A stretch of DNA of 64,000 nucleotides. Origin: a virus. Shown one piece after another: positions 10,890-36,195 of this stretch. The stretch lies in IMG/VR virus record IMGVR_UViG_3300036766_000806, positions 27,048-91,047 of that record; one strand, 5' to 3'. Both the position numbers and the translations under genes were made by a program. Positions within the stretch are counted from its first letter, which is position 1. Every line of letters starts with the position of its first letter. The notes beneath the pieces were generated by a model that saw only the letters and a program-made list of their open reading frames with translations, was not told where the DNA came from and made no database searches.

Positions 10890-10930
10890 CACACGACCCT
10901 AAAGGGTCGGTGCTTGCCTCTGACTGACAG
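10890..10930 (-). ncRNA. candidate omega RNA end next to tnpB
   Basis: TnpB nucleases use a guide RNA from the 3' end of tnpB through the element's right end. The hairpin CGACCCTAAAGGGTCG directly downstream of the tnpB stop fits that place. This is inferred from family knowledge; the true RNA would start well inside the tnpB coding region. Confidence 0.35.
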
Positions 10931-12032
10931 AGACGATTGGTGATTTGACTTTCACCTGTCCATCAAGTGCGGAGCACGTAATGGAGTGTTTGTTATACCG
11001 AAGTCCAATATTATTAGAAGCGTTGAGGTCAGCATCTAATACTTTTCCGTCAATGGCATAATACCTACATCCTTTACGCTTGCCATTGTCAAGACCCCGA
11101 TAGTCAAGTTGGCTGGTGTAGTGAGGACAAACGACTTCCACTCTCTTGCCGAGAGCGAGTGCCTTGTAGGTCAATATGGTTTTGAGTGTGAAAAATGGGA
11201 CTTGGGATAATCGGTTGTTGAACCTTTTACCTTTGGATTTGGACTTGATTTTGGAAAGGTCTTCCAAGACCAATATGTTTGCGGAAGTTGTCAATAGGTC
11301 ATTGACAATGTGATGTGTGTAGTTCTTTGAGAAATGATATTCTCTGCGTCTCAACGTTTTGAGTTTGGTTCGGGCAGAGTGAGAAAGTTTGCCTTGAAGT
11401 TTGCGTTTATTCCAACGTATCTTTCGCTTATGCTTATTGAAGTCGTTGCCTTTGACGATGTTTCCTTCGCTTGTAGCGACAAGACGTTTTAGACCTAAAT
11501 CTATACCAATGGTCTTGGTTCCTTTGAGTGGTTTGGTGGTGTCGTTGAAAACAACAGACAGAAATACATCGTTTCCTCTTGCGAATACGGATGGGTCTTG
11601 TAGAGGAAACTTCTCAAATAGTTCATTGACCTTTTGATACTTGGAGAGTTTGGCAGTGATACGTCCATCCATCGTAGTGAGTTTGATGGCATCATTTCCA
11701 ATCCAAGTATAGATACGCTTATCAAGTTGGATGTTGAGACGATTGGTTTTGACTGGTTCCTCAATCTTGTGATGATTGGCACGGATGGTCTTATACTTGG
11801 AGATTACGTCTTGTTCTGCCTTGATTACAAACTGACTTGGAAGGGCTGGAAACTGCTTACGGACTAAATCGTAGGAGCGTTGGTGAAGAGGCATAATGCC
11901 ATTACAGGTCTTCATTCCAAAGCGGATGGTGGATATAACGTTGAATGCCTCACGCTTCAAGGCGAGGGAGTTGATGAGGGACTGCTTATCCTCATCTTTC
12001 TCAAAAATCAACTTTATATTGTATGTTTTCAT
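10899..12032 (-). CDS. tnpB: TnpB RNA-guided nuclease of IS605 family, zinc finger degenerate
   Basis: 377 residues. RuvC-like catalytic motifs are present: GIDLGLKRLVAT (first Asp), ILVLEDLSKIK (Glu) and DADLNASNNIG (last Asp). Family members cut DNA guided by an RNA from the element end and help the IS persist. The usual four-cysteine finger between YTSQ and DADLNA is largely gone: only CPHYTSQ and one more Cys (KGCRYY) remain. The other finger cysteines appear substituted. Whether this variant is active is unclear. Confidence 0.85.
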   Translation of the reverse strand: MKTYNIKLIFEKDEDKQSLINSLALKREAFNVISTIRFGMKTCNGIMPLHQRSYDLVRKQFPALPSQFVIKAEQDVISKYKTIRANHHKIEEPVKTNRLNIQLDKRIYTWIGNDAIKLTTMDGRITAKLSKYQKVNELFEKFPLQDPSVFARGNDVFLSVVFNDTTKPLKGTKTIGIDLGLKRLVATSEGNIVKGNDFNKHKRKIRWNKRKLQGKLSHSARTKLKTLRRREYHFSKNYTHHIVNDLLTTSANILVLEDLSKIKSKSKGKRFNNRLSQVPFFTLKTILTYKALALGKRVEVVCPHYTSQLDYRGLDNGKRKGCRYYAIDGKVLDADLNASNNIGLRYNKHSITCSALDGQVKVKSPIVSVSQRQAPTL

Positions 12033-14653: not shown

Positions 14654-15832
14654 ATGATAAAAATTGATAAGCCGATTATATTATCTATACTAGACACGGA
14701 TCTTTATAAAGTTACGATGGGACAAATGGTGTTCCATGATTTTCCCGAAGCTGTGGTACAGTATGATTTCATAAACCGTGGTAAAACACCATTTCCTCCC
14801 GGATTTGATAAGGCTTTACAAGAACAAATCAACCATTTGGCATCTCTTCGTTTGACTCCGGATGAGGAGGGGTGGACAAAAACCATTCCATATATTCGCC
14901 CGACGTATATAGAATGGCTTAGAGGATATATTTACGATCCTAACAAAGTTGTGTTTGAGCTAGATTCTAACGGTCAGCTTAGACTTCAAATTCACGGTCC
15001 CTGGTATCGTACTATTTATTGGGAAGTACCTCTCATGGCTATTATTTCTGAATTGTTTTTCAAAATGACAAACCAACAAATGGATAGTAATGCTTATTCT
15101 CGCATTATTACTACGGCAGAAAACCTTAGAAATGCTGATGCTTACTGGATAGATTTTGGTACAAGACGCCGATTTTCATATGAAATACAAAATGCCGTTG
15201 TTAGAACTATGAAAAAATATAAAGGATTTCTTGGAACGAGTAATCCTTATTTAGCTTATATACACGGTGTTACTCCACATGGTACATTTGCCCATGAACT
15301 CGTACAAGGAATTTCGGGAATGTATGGAGTCCGAGGAGCCAATACGATTACAATGAAACGTTGGGCAGAGCATTTCAATGGTAACTTGGGTGTAGCTTTG
15401 TCCGACACTTTTGGAACCTTTTCGTTTTTAAGAGACTTTGATATATATACCGCTAAACTTTTTGATGGAGTTCGCCAAGATTCTGGAGATCCAATTTTTT
15501 GGGGACATAAAATAATAGAGCATTATAAAAAGTTGGGTATTCCAACCAGTAACAAGCGATTGGTGTTTAGTGATAATCTCAATGATGAAAAGTACATTAA
15601 AATTCACAACTTATTTAAGGATATTGCTCAACCCATCGGAGGAATCGGCACTTTTCTTAGTAACAATGTTGGAGTAAAACCATTAAACATGGTAGTGAAA
15701 TTGAAACGTATCAAAAAAACAAAAAATTCGGAGTGGATTGATGTAGTGAAGCTCAGTGATGACCCAGGAAAAGAAATCGGTACTCCAGAGGCAATAGAAC
15801 TTGCTAAAAAAGAATTAGGCATAAGTGCTTGA
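14654..15832 (+). CDS. pncB: nicotinate phosphoribosyltransferase
   Basis: 392 residues, about the length of bacterial PncB. Family motifs: LDTDLYKVTMGQ at the start, FGTRRRFSYE, HGTFAHEL (His region), DTFGTFSFLRDFD, and GVRQDSGDP. It makes nicotinate mononucleotide from nicotinate and PRPP, the first step of the Preiss-Handler NAD route. The partly deleted nicotinamidase at 9720 would have supplied nicotinate. A NAMPT-like specificity is possible but the motifs fit PncB better. The stop TGA is inside the -35 of the next promoter. Confidence 0.85.
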   Translation: MIKIDKPIILSILDTDLYKVTMGQMVFHDFPEAVVQYDFINRGKTPFPPGFDKALQEQINHLASLRLTPDEEGWTKTIPYIRPTYIEWLRGYIYDPNKVVFELDSNGQLRLQIHGPWYRTIYWEVPLMAIISELFFKMTNQQMDSNAYSRIITTAENLRNADAYWIDFGTRRRFSYEIQNAVVRTMKKYKGFLGTSNPYLAYIHGVTPHGTFAHELVQGISGMYGVRGANTITMKRWAEHFNGNLGVALSDTFGTFSFLRDFDIYTAKLFDGVRQDSGDPIFWGHKIIEHYKKLGIPTSNKRLVFSDNLNDEKYIKIHNLFKDIAQPIGGIGTFLSNNVGVKPLNMVVKLKRIKKTKNSEWIDVVKLSDDPGKEIGTPEAIELAKKELGISA

Positions 15833-25021: not shown

Positions 25022-25420
25022 ATGAAAAAATATTTCGGTCTGACAATATGGCTGATTGTTGGTTCGGTTATTTCCCATTCATTCTTTCGCCATTATGGGG
25101 TGTCCGCTTCTATAGTGCAAGGATCATCAATGGAACCAACTTATCACAATAACCAAAAGGTGTTTGTGAATGCTTGGACTCTTCTCTGGCGTAATCCTTA
25201 TAAGGGCGAAGTAATTCTTGTTCGGGACTCACAAGATGGTAAAATTGATATGAAGAGGATTGCCGCTGTACCAGGTGATTTGGTAAATAAATCCGGAATA
25301 AACTCATACAAATTGAGAAAAGATGAATACTTTGTCTTGGGTGACAATTCAAAAAACAGTTATGACAGCCGTTATTACGGGCCAGTTACACGCAATCAAA
25401 TCCTTGCTGTTGTAGAATAG
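25022..25420 (+). CDS. lepB: signal peptidase I
   Basis: 132 residues. An N-terminal membrane anchor (about 5-22) is followed by GSSMEPT with the nucleophile Ser36, KRIAAVPGD with the general base Lys78, and the box-E motif LGDNSKNSYDSRYYGPV. All catalytic elements of bacterial type I signal peptidases are present. The enzyme cleaves signal peptides at the outer face of the membrane. A viral copy is rare. It is followed directly by the RNA ligase gene. Confidence 0.9.
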   Translation: MKKYFGLTIWLIVGSVISHSFFRHYGVSASIVQGSSMEPTYHNNQKVFVNAWTLLWRNPYKGEVILVRDSQDGKIDMKRIAAVPGDLVNKSGINSYKLRKDEYFVLGDNSKNSYDSRYYGPVTRNQILAVVE

Positions 25421-25423
25421 TTT

Positions 25424-26581
25424 ATGCACGTAGATATCTCAAAAATAGATACGACTCAATTCATGATTCATGAGCATATCGTGAATGGAGAAATCCTATA
25501 CCTTGTTCAGCCTCAGTTTATAGGAGTAAAATGGACTCAAGCCAACAAAATATTCAGGTCAAGTGTGTGGAATAATGATGGAGAACTTGTTTCTGGTGCA
25601 TTTCCAAAATTCATGAATTGGGGAGAGAATCCCGAACATTTTCCTGTCCCCACTTCTCTCAAAGATGCCGTCATCACCGAGAAAATTGATGGCTCTCTTC
25701 TCATTGTATCAAAATATAAAGGCCAAATCATTCTTCGTACTCGTGGTACTTCGGATGCTCGAAAACTTGAGAAAAACGGGTATGAATTGGAAATCTTTGA
25801 ACAAACCATATTGCCAGTGGTTGAATCAATGATGTTTTGTGAAGTAGCTGGATTAGACACTTGGAGATTTTCAGTTCTTTTTGAATGGGTTTCTCCAAAG
25901 CAAAGAATAATTCTTAATTATGGTGATCAACCCGAATGGTATCTTGTTGGAATTGTAGATCATAATGACTATTCTATATTTTCTCAAGAAATGTTGAATG
26001 GTTATGCCTTGCAGCATAATTTTAGGCGTCCTCCTGTTTATACTTTTCCCACCATTGAGGATTTAATGTCAAATGTGGAAGCATGGAAAGGCAAAGAAGG
26101 AGTTGTTATTTATTCCAATCAAGGACAATCTTTACATAAAGTCAAAGGATTTTGGTATCTTGCTCTGCATCGTATGAAAGAAGCTCTTTCATCAATAGAT
26201 AAAGTTATTGATGTATGGTATGAGCAAGGTGAACCATCATATACTAATTTTGAGGCTTATATTACCGGACAATTTGATTACGAATTATGGACTCAAATTC
26301 GTCCGGAAGCCAGCAGAATATGTGATGCCGCTAAAGATGTTCAACAAATAATTGCTGGTATGCAAAAGTTTGTTGATGAAACTCTAAAACCTTTACCAAC
26401 TCGCAAGGCACAGGCAGAAAAAGTATTATCTAGTTACGGAAAAACGAACAGAAGTCAATTTGTATTCAAACTGCTTGACCGGAAGCCTCTTGGGGACGAA
26501 GATAGGAAGAAACTTTTGTATCAATGCCTCAAAAAACAGTCAGTTAAATTCTTACAGAAGTGTGGTAGAGTTGTCGTATGA
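25424..26581 (+). CDS. rnlA: T4 RNA ligase 1-like RNA ligase
   Basis: 385 residues. Nucleotidyltransferase motifs: ITEKIDGS (motif I, adenylated Lys87), RTRGT, FEWVSPKQRIILNY (IIIa), KEGVVIY (IV) and KVKGFWYL (V). Family members seal tRNA breaks made by host anticodon nucleases. No T4 Pnkp-like partner is nearby; the HAD and metallophosphoesterase genes at 13.7-17 kb could do end healing, which is speculative. Overlaps the next start by four bases. Confidence 0.85.
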   Translation: MHVDISKIDTTQFMIHEHIVNGEILYLVQPQFIGVKWTQANKIFRSSVWNNDGELVSGAFPKFMNWGENPEHFPVPTSLKDAVITEKIDGSLLIVSKYKGQIILRTRGTSDARKLEKNGYELEIFEQTILPVVESMMFCEVAGLDTWRFSVLFEWVSPKQRIILNYGDQPEWYLVGIVDHNDYSIFSQEMLNGYALQHNFRRPPVYTFPTIEDLMSNVEAWKGKEGVVIYSNQGQSLHKVKGFWYLALHRMKEALSSIDKVIDVWYEQGEPSYTNFEAYITGQFDYELWTQIRPEASRICDAAKDVQQIIAGMQKFVDETLKPLPTRKAQAEKVLSSYGKTNRSQFVFKLLDRKPLGDEDRKKLLYQCLKKQSVKFLQKCGRVVV

Positions 26582-29500
26582 ATAAAAACGCTACATCATC
26601 GAATGTATCCTATATCATTGTGTATGGGTGTCCTGAAAATCCTCCTGTAGGTGAGACATCTGCTTTCCTAAAAGTTGGAGTCACGACTGATCACGGAATG
26701 AACAAAAGGTTCGATGACTATCTTGGACACTATCCGGACAAAAAAATGTCTGATATTCATACACGACAAATCAAGTACGATCTCTCCCTATTCAGGCTAA
26801 CAAAAACCAACACTTTCCTGATAGAAAAAGTGGATGGAAAAAATGTCGAGCCAGATGAATTCATTCACAAAATGCTCCGTCTCAAGGGTTACAAAAATCC
26901 AGATAAAGGTGATGCCAAAGGCAAGCACAGGACCAGTGAGGTTTTTATTGATCTTCCGTGGAATGTGGTAGATGATTGTATTACAATCGCTATTAATAAC
27001 TTTTGGAACTGGAAATCTTGTAAAAAGGTTCTTTCTGCAAACAAACCTTCTCTCCATCTTTATCTCTGGCAAGCATGGAATATTGCAAAACGAGCAGATG
27101 TCAGAAGAGCACTCCCGAATGAAGATGTAATCGCAGAGTTTTCATGTCCTCGGTTCGGCAAGACTATCCGAGAGTTGTACGAGTTTTACAAGAGCGATAG
27201 AAACTTGCTTGTCCTTGTTCAATATAACCTCAGTCCTGTGACATCCTTCTTCACTGAGATTGAGTCTTGGGCAGAATTTGCTGAAATAGAGACTTATGAT
27301 GCCACCGATTCGTTGGTGGAGATAAGTAGCCTTCCTCCTGATCTTACGAATGGGAAGAAAGTTATTGCTATATCCTTGTGTGGAGAGAAAGACAGGGATA
27401 AGAATGAAGAATTCTGTAAGTACCTAAAACTTCACGCCGAAGCATCTAAAACTATCATCAAAATGGATGAGGTAGATTTTGGTGCCGCTACAGAGAAGAG
27501 CAAATACAAGCTAGAAAAGATCAAGAATTCACTCAAAGGAGTGAAAGTTGATATTTTCTCTGGAACCGGCGAGGATAAAGTCAATTTTAAGATGGAGTTA
27601 GATGACAGGGTAAAAGCATCTGCTATCAGAACTGGCTATATCGAGTTGCTCCTTATCAAACGGGGCACTCATTATCTGTTTACTCCGGAATACCGACTTT
27701 CTCTCGATCCTTCGAGGAATAAGTTCGAAATTGAATTCCTTGACAAAATTGGTGCCACTAATTATCGCAGTCCCGAGGGGTTGATTAAACCAGTTTTTTT
27801 CGGACTCAGCGTGGGCGATGATATCTGGAGAAATATTGACAAAGTTCATAATGAAAAAGGAGATTATGATCCTCGTCTTGGATTTGCTTATGGCAAGATC
27901 AACAAAATGCCATTCAAATATGTTACTGTCCATCAGAACATATGGAGACAATTTCTTGGTGTTGATAAGTTAGCCGGCGGGCGACTTGACTACAAGCAAT
28001 TTACTGCCGGCAAACCATTGCGAGTTATTCTAACATGGGTAAGTGCTGGTGGTGGGATGACTAAGGAAAAACTACACGATCTTACCGATGTCGTAGGCAA
28101 TGATCCGGATATAGCTAAAGAATGGTTGGTCGTTCCCGTTTGTGGAAAGAAAAAGTGGGGAGCGTTTAGCAAAGGTGGAAAAACTGCCACAAATAATCGC
28201 AATGCAGAGCGATTTGCTAATACCTGGATTGACCGTGCTAAAAAAGAAGGAAAAGGTGTCATTTTCTTTGCTATGATATTGGCTCAACGAAGTTTCAGCG
28301 TATCTCGTATTGATGCCATAATGTTCTATCGTGATGACCTTCCTGCGGACTCTGCCGAACAGAAATTATCACGGGTTCTCACACCTGGTAAAGATTTCTA
28401 TGGAGCAGACAAAAAGTGTGGATATATCTTTGATCTTTCTTTGACACCAAACTCATCTGTCATCGAAAACTATATCTTTAGCGAAATCAATGAGCAGGCA
28501 AGAAATGGCATTTCTGCCAAGGTAGCTGCTACCAAGTTCTTTGAGGTTATTGATGTGTTCCGAATGAACCAGCTTGGCCTTGTTGAGAAACAGGTAACGT
28601 TTTCGGATGCCGACTTTACTTCCTATGCCAAAGCATGTCGTACAATGTATGCTCGGACAGAAATCCGTGATATGGTTCTAGCTATGGGAGATATGGGTGC
28701 TTTCATGGACTTTGTTCGATGGGCGTCTACCAGGAAATCTCTCACCAATCAGCAACGGGATGTGCTCAAAGGGTTTGTTAAAGGTGCCAAGCTTAATGAT
28801 GGAAAGATAACTAAGCATCACCACCCTTCGGATGAAGATGATAATGCAAAGCGTCCTATAGATGGATTTACTCAGGCAATGGTACTTGCCCGTCGCTTGC
28901 TCTATGAGAGCGTTCTTAACATGGCAGCGATTCACTGTTCGGTGAAGAATATCAAGCTGTCAGACATCGAAAAAAATCAGATAAAGTACAGTGACATTCT
29001 TGCTACTATCGAAAGTAATCCGACCGCTTTTGATCTTTTTAAGGATCATTTTAAGTTCGACTCGGACGAACAAGCTACAAAGATATTGGGATACATTCAG
29101 AGGATGCCGCTGGATGATAAGCTTACTGCTAACCTTCATAGTGTCATTCTCGAAACTGCCTTCGGAAAGGATTGGAAAAATGATGATCTGAATGACTATC
29201 TTTACACGGATACTGACGATGGAAAAATCCACACACCAATGAGTCTGGTTGGTGAAATGATGAATAAGTGGATTGCCGTTGCCAGGGGACATAATGACGA
29301 TCCTCGTACAATGAAGTTTCTTGACCCTCACTGTAAGACGGGTTCATTCTTGCGATGGATACACCAGACACTAAAAGACGATGGAGTATCTGAGGAAAAT
29401 ATTCAGAAGCAGGTAATGGGAATTGAGAATGACCCGGTGTATCTGGTGCTTGCTCGGCATATATCGGGGATTGATAATATCCAGTATAAAAACTTGATTG

Positions 29501-30402
29501 ATGACGAGGAACTTGCTATATTTACTAGCGAGAACATGAAGAAGTTTGATGTCATCGTTGGAAATGCCCCCTACCAAGCACCCGCCAATAAGGAACGTAA
29601 AGGCGGTTCTCCCAAGAGCATTTGGGAGAAGTTTGTCCATCTATCTTTATCCTGTTTGAAGGATGGTGGATACCTATGCTATATTCATCCTTCTCGATGG
29701 CGTAAGCCCGAAGACGAGTTGTGGAATGTGCTTGGAAGTAAACAGATAATATGGCTTAAAATCTATGATAACGCCGCCGCCACTGACCTGTTCGGAGTAG
29801 GCACTACGGCTGATTGCTACGTGCTAAAGAATACCCCCTATATCTCTCCCACCACGGTTATTGACTGTGACGGGAAAGAACATACAATTGACTTCCGAGA
29901 GTGGGAGTGGCCTCCCAGTGCTGAGTATGAACTAATCAAATCCATTATTGCCCACGGCGACGATGAAAAATGTGAAGTGCTCTACGATTGCGTTTATCAC
30001 AACCAGCGAAAAGATGTAGTTAATGGAGAAGAACCGAATGGGGCGTTCGTCAACCCATGTGTCAATCACACCAAAAAGAATGGAATAATTGAATATCTCT
30101 ATTCCAACACCAAGGAGCGTGGGCATTTCGGTATTACAAAGGTCATTGTTGCAGATAATGGGCATGTGAGACCGATAAACGACAGTGAAGGAAAATTAGG
30201 AATGACCGAATGTTGCTTCGCTATAACCTCGGTTGGAAAATCTGACTGCGAGCAAGTATGTAATGCCCTTTCCTCGGATAAGTTTGCTAAGGTAGTGTGG
30301 GCAACAAAATGGGGGAATTATAGGACAGAATACAGGATGTTCCGCTACTTTCGCAAAGACTTCTGGAAGGATTTCCTCCCCGCCAATGAGTCACACCCGT
30401 AA
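26578..30402 (+). CDS. fused nuclease-like / helicase-like / N6-adenine methyltransferase
   Basis: 1274 residues, the largest gene. Residues about 10-130 resemble a GIY-YIG or T5orf172-type domain (YIIVYG; FLKVGVTT...KRF; FIHKML; SEVF). A SF2-like ATPase region follows: CPRFGKTIREL (P-loop-like, about 191) and KMDEVDFGAA (DExx box, about 297). The C-terminal third is an adenine methyltransferase: FLDPHCKTGSFL (motif I, about 912) and VIVGNAPYQAP (motif IV, NPPY variant, about 995), followed by a probable target-recognition region. The order recalls single-chain type ISP restriction enzymes, with a different nuclease. It overlaps the next methyltransferase by 17 bases. Confidence 0.7.
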   Translation: MNKNATSSNVSYIIVYGCPENPPVGETSAFLKVGVTTDHGMNKRFDDYLGHYPDKKMSDIHTRQIKYDLSLFRLTKTNTFLIEKVDGKNVEPDEFIHKMLRLKGYKNPDKGDAKGKHRTSEVFIDLPWNVVDDCITIAINNFWNWKSCKKVLSANKPSLHLYLWQAWNIAKRADVRRALPNEDVIAEFSCPRFGKTIRELYEFYKSDRNLLVLVQYNLSPVTSFFTEIESWAEFAEIETYDATDSLVEISSLPPDLTNGKKVIAISLCGEKDRDKNEEFCKYLKLHAEASKTIIKMDEVDFGAATEKSKYKLEKIKNSLKGVKVDIFSGTGEDKVNFKMELDDRVKASAIRTGYIELLLIKRGTHYLFTPEYRLSLDPSRNKFEIEFLDKIGATNYRSPEGLIKPVFFGLSVGDDIWRNIDKVHNEKGDYDPRLGFAYGKINKMPFKYVTVHQNIWRQFLGVDKLAGGRLDYKQFTAGKPLRVILTWVSAGGGMTKEKLHDLTDVVGNDPDIAKEWLVVPVCGKKKWGAFSKGGKTATNNRNAERFANTWIDRAKKEGKGVIFFAMILAQRSFSVSRIDAIMFYRDDLPADSAEQKLSRVLTPGKDFYGADKKCGYIFDLSLTPNSSVIENYIFSEINEQARNGISAKVAATKFFEVIDVFRMNQLGLVEKQVTFSDADFTSYAKACRTMYARTEIRDMVLAMGDMGAFMDFVRWASTRKSLTNQQRDVLKGFVKGAKLNDGKITKHHHPSDEDDNAKRPIDGFTQAMVLARRLLYESVLNMAAIHCSVKNIKLSDIEKNQIKYSDILATIESNPTAFDLFKDHFKFDSDEQATKILGYIQRMPLDDKLTANLHSVILETAFGKDWKNDDLNDYLYTDTDDGKIHTPMSLVGEMMNKWIAVARGHNDDPRTMKFLDPHCKTGSFLRWIHQTLKDDGVSEENIQKQVMGIENDPVYLVLARHISGIDNIQYKNLIDDEELAIFTSENMKKFDVIVGNAPYQAPANKERKGGSPKSIWEKFVHLSLSCLKDGGYLCYIHPSRWRKPEDELWNVLGSKQIIWLKIYDNAAATDLFGVGTTADCYVLKNTPYISPTTVIDCDGKEHTIDFREWEWPPSAEYELIKSIIAHGDDEKCEVLYDCVYHNQRKDVVNGEEPNGAFVNPCVNHTKKNGIIEYLYSNTKERGHFGITKVIVADNGHVRPINDSEGKLGMTECCFAITSVGKSDCEQVCNALSSDKFAKVVWATKWGNYRTEYRMFRYFRKDFWKDFLPANESHP

Positions 30403-30856
30403 ACATGCCAAACAAGCCATTAAGCAGCGTGGGGAAGTATTTACACCGACTCCGCTGGTTAATGAAATGTTAGACAAGCTCCCGAAAGAATTATTCCTAG
30501 ATCCCGATAAGACTTTTCTGGATAATTCGTGTGGTAATGGCAATTTTTTAGTGGCGGTGCTTGAAAGAAAAATGCAGAATGGCATATCCCATAAACAAGC
30601 ACTTAATACTATCTATGGAGTAGAGATAGATGAAAATAATTCCAAAGAATGCAGACAAAGATTATCTCTTGGGAGTCAAACCCCAGAAATATGGACAATT
30701 CTTGAAAATAATATTATCACCGCCGATGGTCTCGATCCCAATCACCCCGGTTGGATTAAAGTAGGTTTCTATTGGGATAGAGAAGGATTACCCAAGATCA
30801 TAATAGACATTATGACTCATTGGAATGAACAAATAAAGAATGGAGAAACATGGTAA
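30386..30856 (+). CDS. small N6-adenine methyltransferase-like protein without catalytic motif IV
   Basis: 156 residues. GEVFTPTPLVNEMLDKLP (start of many type I/IIG MTases) and FLDNSCGNGNFLVAV (motif I) are clear, but no NPPY follows; the chain ends with WDREGLPK...DIMTHWNEQ. It may be truncated or act as a partner of the large upstream enzyme, with which it is coupled by overlap. Confidence 0.65.
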   Translation: MSHTRKHAKQAIKQRGEVFTPTPLVNEMLDKLPKELFLDPDKTFLDNSCGNGNFLVAVLERKMQNGISHKQALNTIYGVEIDENNSKECRQRLSLGSQTPEIWTILENNIITADGLDPNHPGWIKVGFYWDREGLPKIIIDIMTHWNEQIKNGETW

Positions 30857-34936: not shown

Positions 34937-35008
34937 ATGAAAATGGCAGGAGTAATTCAATCCGCTCTTGGCATCCCTCTTTACGAGAAGGATCTAAATC
35001 CTTCATGA
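34937..35008 (+). CDS. 23-residue peptide coupled to the methyltransferase
   Basis: MKMAGVIQSALGIPLYEKDL ends in a TGA that overlaps the start of the 35005 gene. The overlap is its main support; a role as a translational lead-in is possible. Confidence 0.35.
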   Translation: MKMAGVIQSALGIPLYEKDLNPS

Positions 35009-36195
35009 ATAAGAGAGAAAATCTAGGACAAGTTTTCACTCACCCGAAAACCGTCGATTTCATGTTGAGTCTGCGGAAGAACCATGTTAATACTTCTACT
35101 TTAGAACCTGCGGCTGGCAATGGAGCATTCAGTAATAAACTTCCTGGTTGCGCTGCCATTGAAATTGATCCAGATATTTGTCCCAAAGAAGCGTTGGCAA
35201 TAGATTTCTTCACTTATCCTTCCTTCAAATTTCTTACACAAATAGCCAATCCTCCTTATGTAGCTGGAAAGAATATTCTCCTTGACACAAGAATGATTAT
35301 TGAAAGATCTGGTGGGACGTTATTAAATCACGGGAAAACCAATCTTTATCTCTATTTCCTTGAAAAAATGGCCCGAGAACATATGCAAAGACCGGGTTCA
35401 GAGATTATCATCATTATTCCCCGTGACTTCCTCAAAGCAACTTCGGCAATATTATTGAATAAGTGGCTTTATGCGCACGGTACTATTACTCATTATTATG
35501 ATCATGGTGATAGAAAAATGTTTAAAGATGCTTTTCCTAATACTTGCATTATAAGATATGAACTCGGTGACTATTCAAGAAAAACAATCACAAATGATGG
35601 AGTGAAAAATTTTGTTGAAATAGACGGACAACTTCTTTTCTTGAAAGATGATTATAGCGTGCCTTTATCAAATCTATTCACCGTAAAGGTCGGTGGTGTC
35701 AGCGGGGCGGATGAAATCTTTGCTGATAATGTACTAGGAAATGAAGAGTTTGTATTCTCGGAAACAAGAACTACTGGGAAAACTCGTAAAATGATATATA
35801 ACTATTCCCCGGCTATTCCTTACCTAGAATTTTTTTATAAAGAAGATCTCCTCAAAAGAAAGATAAAACACTTTACCGAAGATAACTGGTGGCAGTGGGG
35901 ACGGGATTTCCATCATTCAACTGATAAGAGAATTTACGTTAACTGCAAGACCAGACAAGCCAATCCGTTTTTTACTCATCCTTGTACAAATTACGATGGC
36001 TCTATATTAGCTTTGTTTCTAAAAGACCAATCTCAAGACCCCAAAGCTCTTTGCAATGCCTTAAATAAAGTAAATTGGAAAGATTTAGGCTTTGTTTGTG
36101 GCAATAGATATTTATTTTCTCAGCGAACTCTTGAGCGTATTATACTTCCTTCGTCGCTATTTATAGAGTATGCAAAGAAGATATATTCGCAGTAA
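35005..36195 (+). CDS. N6-adenine DNA methyltransferase (TaqI-like)
   Basis: 396 residues. LGQVFTHPKTVDFML, LEPAAGNGAFSNKL (motif I) and IANPPYVAG (motif IV, NPPY catalytic) give a complete catalytic domain. The C-terminal half would recognise DNA. No restriction partner is adjacent, so it is probably a solitary methylase protecting phage DNA. Overlaps the next gene by 26 bases. Confidence 0.8.
   Translation: MNKRENLGQVFTHPKTVDFMLSLRKNHVNTSTLEPAAGNGAFSNKLPGCAAIEIDPDICPKEALAIDFFTYPSFKFLTQIANPPYVAGKNILLDTRMIIERSGGTLLNHGKTNLYLYFLEKMAREHMQRPGSEIIIIIPRDFLKATSAILLNKWLYAHGTITHYYDHGDRKMFKDAFPNTCIIRYELGDYSRKTITNDGVKNFVEIDGQLLFLKDDYSVPLSNLFTVKVGGVSGADEIFADNVLGNEEFVFSETRTTGKTRKMIYNYSPAIPYLEFFYKEDLLKRKIKHFTEDNWWQWGRDFHHSTDKRIYVNCKTRQANPFFTHPCTNYDGSILALFLKDQSQDPKALCNALNKVNWKDLGFVCGNRYLFSQRTLERIILPSSLFIEYAKKIYSQ

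Follow-up and report, generated by a model that had tools for sequence, protein, structure and literature searches.

A phage gene cassette predicted to encode an ATP-dependent restriction-modification enzyme with a GIY-YIG-like domain and a split methyltransferase

The 64,000-nucleotide stretch of viral DNA analyzed here (the window; positions 27048-91047 of a virus record that is 91,047 bases long) encodes at 26578-30402 (+) a protein of 1274 residues in which a GIY-YIG-like domain, an SF2 motor, a helical coupler and a methyltransferase/target-recognition module follow one another in a single chain. We predict, with a probability of about 0.5, that this protein and the product of the small gene behind it make up a phage-borne ATP-dependent restriction-modification enzyme with a split methyltransferase and GIY-YIG cutting, based on the layout, the motor, the split methylase and the swapped target half taken together. 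In the mechanism that we infer, component C (the SAM-binding half) would complement the B module (the NPPY half plus target recognition) in trans to form one split N6-adenine methyltransferase, which would mark the DNA of the phage itself at a sequence that the C-terminal half of B specifies. At an unmethylated site the SF2 motor would translocate on the DNA, and its nicking or cutting would fall to the N-terminal GIY-YIG domain, which has Asp in place of Glu. Unmarked DNA would be the target, whether from a rival phage or plasmid or from the chromosome of the host.

The gene and the cassette family

The reading frame at 26578-30402 begins with ATG and has no internal stop, and there are many stops on the opposite strand. 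By these signs and by the substitution pattern given below, it is a real gene under purifying selection. An earlier note, made from the letters of the sequence, had described it as a nuclease-like/helicase/methyltransferase chain, and this description was confirmed by the intact frame, the located motifs and the selection. The gene for component C (30386-30856, +; 156 residues) overlaps it by 17 nucleotides and is part of the same cassette. On the upstream side it overlaps by 4 nucleotides a gene (25424-26581, +) for a T4 Rnl1-like RNA ligase/tail-fibre attachment catalyst (phrog_562), which is preceded by a small gene (25022-25420, +) that by eye resembles an S26-type signal peptidase (QGSSMEP, MKRIAAVPGD, GDNS) and is unusual for a phage. 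Elsewhere in the window are a transposase-like gene on the strand opposite to the cassette (10899-12032, −; phrog_506), a nicotinamide phosphoribosyltransferase-like gene (14654-15832, +; phrog_448) and another, separate DNA methyltransferase gene (35005-36195, +; 396 residues, LEPAAGNGAF and NPPY; phrog_5172/1600). Given this last gene, the phage is predicted to encode at least two methylation activities.

Used as a single-sequence query, the window protein found no relatives in viral contigs, genome contigs or the PDB, and the family was thus reached by alignments only. Pfam recognized the methyltransferase part only (Eco57I, 5.8e-12; N6_Mtase, 9.2e-9), PADLOC and NCBIfam returned generic methylases only, and the PADLOC type IIG REase-MTase model PDLC03626 gave no match to the window protein up to E 1. 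The name MADS2 (mad2) was rejected for the protein, as the match was to a generic N6-methyltransferase only. The leads into the family were a 484-kb uncultured phage with the same order, found by pairwise comparison, and cyanophage S-CAM7. A helicase alignment built from these leads yielded 11 loci, and a better alignment yielded 75 relatives in viral contigs. The same method, which reaches close relatives only, gave one weak match in 84,980 bacterial and archaeal species genomes; given this reach and the existence of distant plasmid relatives, the result speaks for a virus bias of the window lineage and not for absence from bacteria.

The relatives define a cassette of three components: A (GIY-YIG-motor), B (NPPY methyltransferase plus target recognition) and C (small, with motifs X and I). 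HMM mapping of all ORFs placed it on 76 distinct viral contigs, with all three parts in 59 of them, B in 67 and C in 63; several of the incomplete cassettes are truncated by the end of the contig or of the sequence stretch. A is encoded either by one gene or by a pair whose border falls behind the motor's N-lobe. Five contigs have a full or partial fusion of A and B, among them the window, where C follows the fusion, its sibling L006/L007, whose protein is 61% identical to that of the window, and L083. More than one B gene was found in 11 contigs. Given these 76 contigs, the idea of a protein found in this phage alone was rejected, and the claim that its architecture is peculiar to this phage is contradicted by them and by the more distant relatives on plasmids.

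In the human-gut phage MT835780, C, B and A are separate genes, and the best matches to the A protein among 79 plasmid records have 51-71% identity to it along almost its full length. The plasmids that carry these A relatives come from Treponema, Bifidobacterium, lactic acid bacteria, enterococci and Arthrobacter. C adjoins a fused A+B on plasmids of Pediococcus, Enterococcus and Loigolactobacillus, and separate A and B genes on those of Arthrobacter. The plasmid products are annotated as 'DEAD/DEAH box helicase' or 'Eco57I restriction-modification methylase domain-containing', and the plasmid relatives with C beside A+B match PDLC03626 (E 1e-117), with C matching a methyltransferase model. 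Two strains of S-CAM7 have related B and C but a very different A at the same locus, and the A gene of one of them is annotated as 'type II restriction-modification system restriction subunit'. We found no study of the cassette and no experimental work on any member in the open-access literature searched. As judged by these comparisons, the cassette is a widespread family of virus-borne, predicted restriction-modification systems in which the target module is swapped between relatives.

The N-terminal domain and the motor

Residues ~1-160 (26578-27057, +) form a T5orf172-type GIY-YIG domain with the pattern Y16, K32-x-G34, R44, D93 and E121. Over 55 relatives, most of which share only 10-22% identity with the window in this domain and still keep the active-site pattern, Y16 and G34 are invariant (both 55/55), K32 is present in 51 and R44 in 42, and the position of E121 is always acidic (49 E, 6 D). 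The position of D93 (codon 26854-26856, +), which corresponds to the catalytic Glu of GIY-YIG enzymes, is Asp in 54 relatives and Asn in one. The active-site residues agree one-to-one with those of the T5orf172 proteins of phages T5 and ICP1, with the exception of the residue four before the His, which is Glu in the T5 and ICP1 proteins and Asp in this family, plasmid members included. Since the other residues match, the active site is kept but for one conservative change. ICP1 Odn, a T5orf172 protein, is a proven nuclease and requires the corresponding Glu for cutting (PMC8263062). The strict change of the catalytic Glu to Asp within an otherwise kept T5orf172 site looks like a new feature.

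The assignment of this domain rests on several comparisons. The window domain alone scored 15.9 bits against Pfam T5orf172, below the 20-bit cut-off; among the 55 relatives, T5orf172 was matched in 11 (best 2.5e-6) and MUG113 in nine. A profile of the window, phage and plasmid members matched the T5/ICP1 T5orf172 profile with a probability of 94.5 (E 7.6e-8), and the more divergent 55-row profile did so with a probability of 25 (E 7.5e-4). An AF2 model of the domain, a check proposed in the earlier note, had a pLDDT of 80 and the order beta-beta-alpha-beta-alpha-beta. In a Foldseek search of the BFVD viral models its top match was a T5orf172 protein (E 1.2e-3, probability 0.99), with a low TM-score of 0.33; against the PDB there was no match, only noise (E above 0.1, rmsd near 20). 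No clear GIY-YIG pattern was apparent in L063, L089 and L002. The conserved pattern, the Pfam matches of the relatives and the profile match support the earlier suggestion that the N-terminus is of the GIY-YIG/T5orf172 type instead of an Mrr nuclease.

The motor (residues ~161-640; 27058-28497, +) resembles SF2 dsDNA translocases and carries the Walker A sequence CPRFGKT (residues 190-196; 27145-27165, +), a DEVD box, SGTG, RSFSVS and Q-KLSR-LT. In a 25-row alignment C-x-RFGKT was invariant, and DExDxG, the GT motif, RS and Q..SR..T were invariant or nearly so. A reading of CPRFGKT as a sign of decay was rejected on account of this invariance. Pfam gave weak Helicase_C/ResIII matches to the motor part of relatives. 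Between motor and methyltransferase lies a coupler (residues ~641-870; 28498-29187, +) that matched no Pfam domain and that in the AF2 model is mostly helical, with parts at low confidence. The model of residues 1-881 (pLDDT 68) had as its best Foldseek match in the PDB the type ISP enzyme LlaBIII (4xqk; E 4.3e-9), with chromatin remodellers, ZorD, SauUSI and EcoR124I HsdR also among the best matches. As judged by this model, the motor belongs to the dsDNA-translocase branch of SF2, and the closeness to LlaBIII upholds the proposal that the helicase-methyltransferase order is like that of type ISP enzymes.

The proposed split methyltransferase and its target half

The N-terminal half of B (residues 874-988; 29197-29541, +) is a C-like domain, which the HMM of C matches as well, with a degenerate SAM motif, DPHCKTGSFL (residues 916-925; 29323-29352). 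The catalytic motif IV, NAPY, follows at residues 996-999 (29563-29574, +). In the window, these two altered motifs in A+B are accompanied by an intact motif I in C (DNSCGNGNF; 30521-30547, +). C itself has motif X (GEVFTP) and motif I only, without motif IV; across relatives, the E..TP of motif X and G50 of motif I are both conserved in 52 of 52. Among B sequences, the Asn of motif IV is present in 68 of 69 and NPPY or NPPF in 63 of 69, and motif I is degenerate. Ten B ORFs have NPPY within their first 70 residues and so can hold no motif I. The genome of cyanophage ACG-2014f has a B of this kind, without room for motif I, at 135 kb and a C at a distance from it, at 36 kb. We infer a single N6-adenine methyltransferase composed of C and B, with the SAM half in C and the catalytic half in B. 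Such a split, in which the SAM motif is intact in C and degenerate or absent in the NPPY-bearing B, looks new as judged from the sequences.

These results bear on two further points of the earlier note. The phage setting and the coupling to a methyltransferase-like gene both stand, but that gene is probably the SAM-binding half of the same methyltransferase and not a second one; as a complete second methyltransferase it was rejected, given that it has neither motif IV nor a target domain. Of the motifs that had been called variant, two are truly unusual, namely K920 in the glycine-rich SAM loop (DPHCKTGSF), found in the window and L006 only (2/69), and NAPY, found in the window only (1/69; L006 has NPPY), whereas CPRFGKT is ordinary for the family. 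C was also found in 99 cultured-phage records (cyanophages, Aeromonas and Klebsiella phages and Prevotella Lak phages), while tblastn detected the motor in only two. By these counts the split methyltransferase can exist without A, and the C-bearing cultured phages without a detected motor look like carriers of motor-free split methyltransferases.

The divergent part of B is its C-terminal half, the target-recognition region (residues 1046-1274; 29713-30399, +). In contig L035 (3311-9817), five tandem B genes are 92-97% identical before motif IV and 13-41% identical after it, an apparent set of target specificities; L050, L051, L058 and L061 have the same pattern, with alike N-terminal and divergent C-terminal halves. 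Compared with L006, the window is 65-76% identical in the N-domain, motor, linker and N-terminal half of B and 77% identical in C, but only 33% in the target half. For all parts other than motif IV and the target half, pN was 0.14-0.22 and pS 0.67-0.87 (0.22 and 0.87 for the N-domain), synonymous differences being near saturation. These values and identities indicate that the putative cutting domain and the motor are kept by selection, and that the target half either is swapped or changes rapidly. The modularity of B, with variation confined to the target half, looks like a new feature of these sequences. Elsewhere in the family, a split motor gene of L061 (2073-9996) has three B genes between its two parts and more B on both sides, as if modules had been inserted, and the 484-kb phage LR756508 has an orphan B (L002:6004-6837; 277 residues, 34.5% identical to the B part of the window) beside its fused A+B.

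Relation to known systems and alternative readings

The closest known counterparts are the type ISP enzymes LlaBIII and LlaGI, which likewise combine in a single chain an N-terminal nuclease, an SF2 motor, a helical coupler, a gamma-type N6-adenine methyltransferase and target recognition. The presence in the window protein of an SF2 translocase after a nuclease-type domain, and of a gamma-type methyltransferase with target recognition in the same chain, speaks for an enzyme that may work like type ISP, though by its nuclease type it is not a member: its N-terminus is T5orf172/GIY-YIG and not Mrr-family PD-(D/E)XK. The family also differs in that the SAM half apparently comes from a second protein, C, and in that A, B and C are separate genes in most relatives, several of which have more than one B. 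The conserved partner C and the degenerate motif I of B argue against one-chain working as in type ISP. Type I systems (HsdR/HsdM/HsdS) similarly unite a motor, methylation and exchangeable specificity, and HsdR is among the structural matches, but in the window target recognition is in B with motif IV and the nuclease is not PD-(D/E)XK; no HsdS-like specificity gene was recognized in the cassettes. The plasmid PDLC03626 family (Pediococcus pentosaceus pRS5, WP_012660355 + WP_012660354) shares the T5orf172-like domain with its D-x-x-x-H signature, the RFGKT motor, the NPPY methyltransferase and an adjoining C-like gene, but is far diverged (AKPRFGKT, DEAH; 1417-1445 residues) from the window protein, which the PDLC03626 model does not match. 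The T5orf172 nucleases (the phage T5 protein and ICP1 Odn) have Y, K-x-G, R and E-x-F at the same places; they differ in their canonical Glu, for which the window family has Asp, and the window protein carries the domain in one chain with a motor and methyltransferase. DarB of P1 may be a helicase-methyltransferase analogue.

The main rival to the restriction-modification reading is a purely protective enzyme, in which a motor-assisted split methyltransferase shields the phage DNA at one or several sites from host enzymes and the GIY-YIG-like domain has no nuclease activity and persists as a relic for DNA binding or structure sensing. Asp at the catalytic Glu position throughout the family and the many cultured phages with B+C in which no motor was detected favor this rival and count against restriction-modification, as do, on the latter side, the NAPY motif of the window, the lack of a PDB match and the low BFVD TM-score of the N-domain, and the three loci without a clear GIY-YIG pattern. 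Tandem B genes with different target halves would also fit protection against many host enzymes, and a review of jumbo phages attributes multiple phage methylases to the overcoming of host restriction (PMC7824862), which fits as well. However, conservation within the domain is highest at the remaining active-site residues, with strict Asp in 54 of 55 and only Glu or Asp at the E121 position, the N-domain has a pN far below its pS, and the motor is like those of restriction translocases. We regard protection alone as less likely on balance.

Two further explanations appear weaker. The enzyme could have restriction-modification chemistry with the degradation of the unmethylated host chromosome as its main job, the phage DNA having been marked since the previous cycle. 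This would follow from the restriction-modification reading if the host lacks the mark, and the virus-biased spread (75 viral-contig relatives against the single weak genome match) agrees with it, but plasmid-borne relatives would have no role in host degradation and the genome-scan patterns reach close relatives only; we consider such a main job improbable. Least probable, and very much so, is that the 1274-residue protein is a complete single-chain enzyme and C a separate small methyltransferase or regulator. B does keep a C-like domain and a motif X (IHTP) and could bind SAM by itself; against this, C has no motif IV or any target domain, it occurs together with A and B in 59 of the 76 contigs, and K920 falls within the glycine-rich SAM loop of B.

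If the restriction-modification reading holds, there are phages that bring along a multi-target restriction-modification system of their own, which they could use against rivals or the host. More tentatively, and with somewhat less than even odds, the cassettes may represent a phage-specific class of ATP-dependent restriction-modification systems, with an Asp-type GIY-YIG nuclease on a translocase, a constant SAM subunit and interchangeable catalytic/target subunits, in which up to five target modules per phage would distinguish its own DNA from that of the host and of rivals. The strict Glu-to-Asp swap in an otherwise intact GIY-YIG site poses a clean question for that nuclease superfamily. 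A constant SAM half with swappable catalytic/target halves would, if true, be an uncommon way to build an N6-adenine DNA methyltransferase, and the tandem B arrays would constitute a natural set of new DNA-target specificities.
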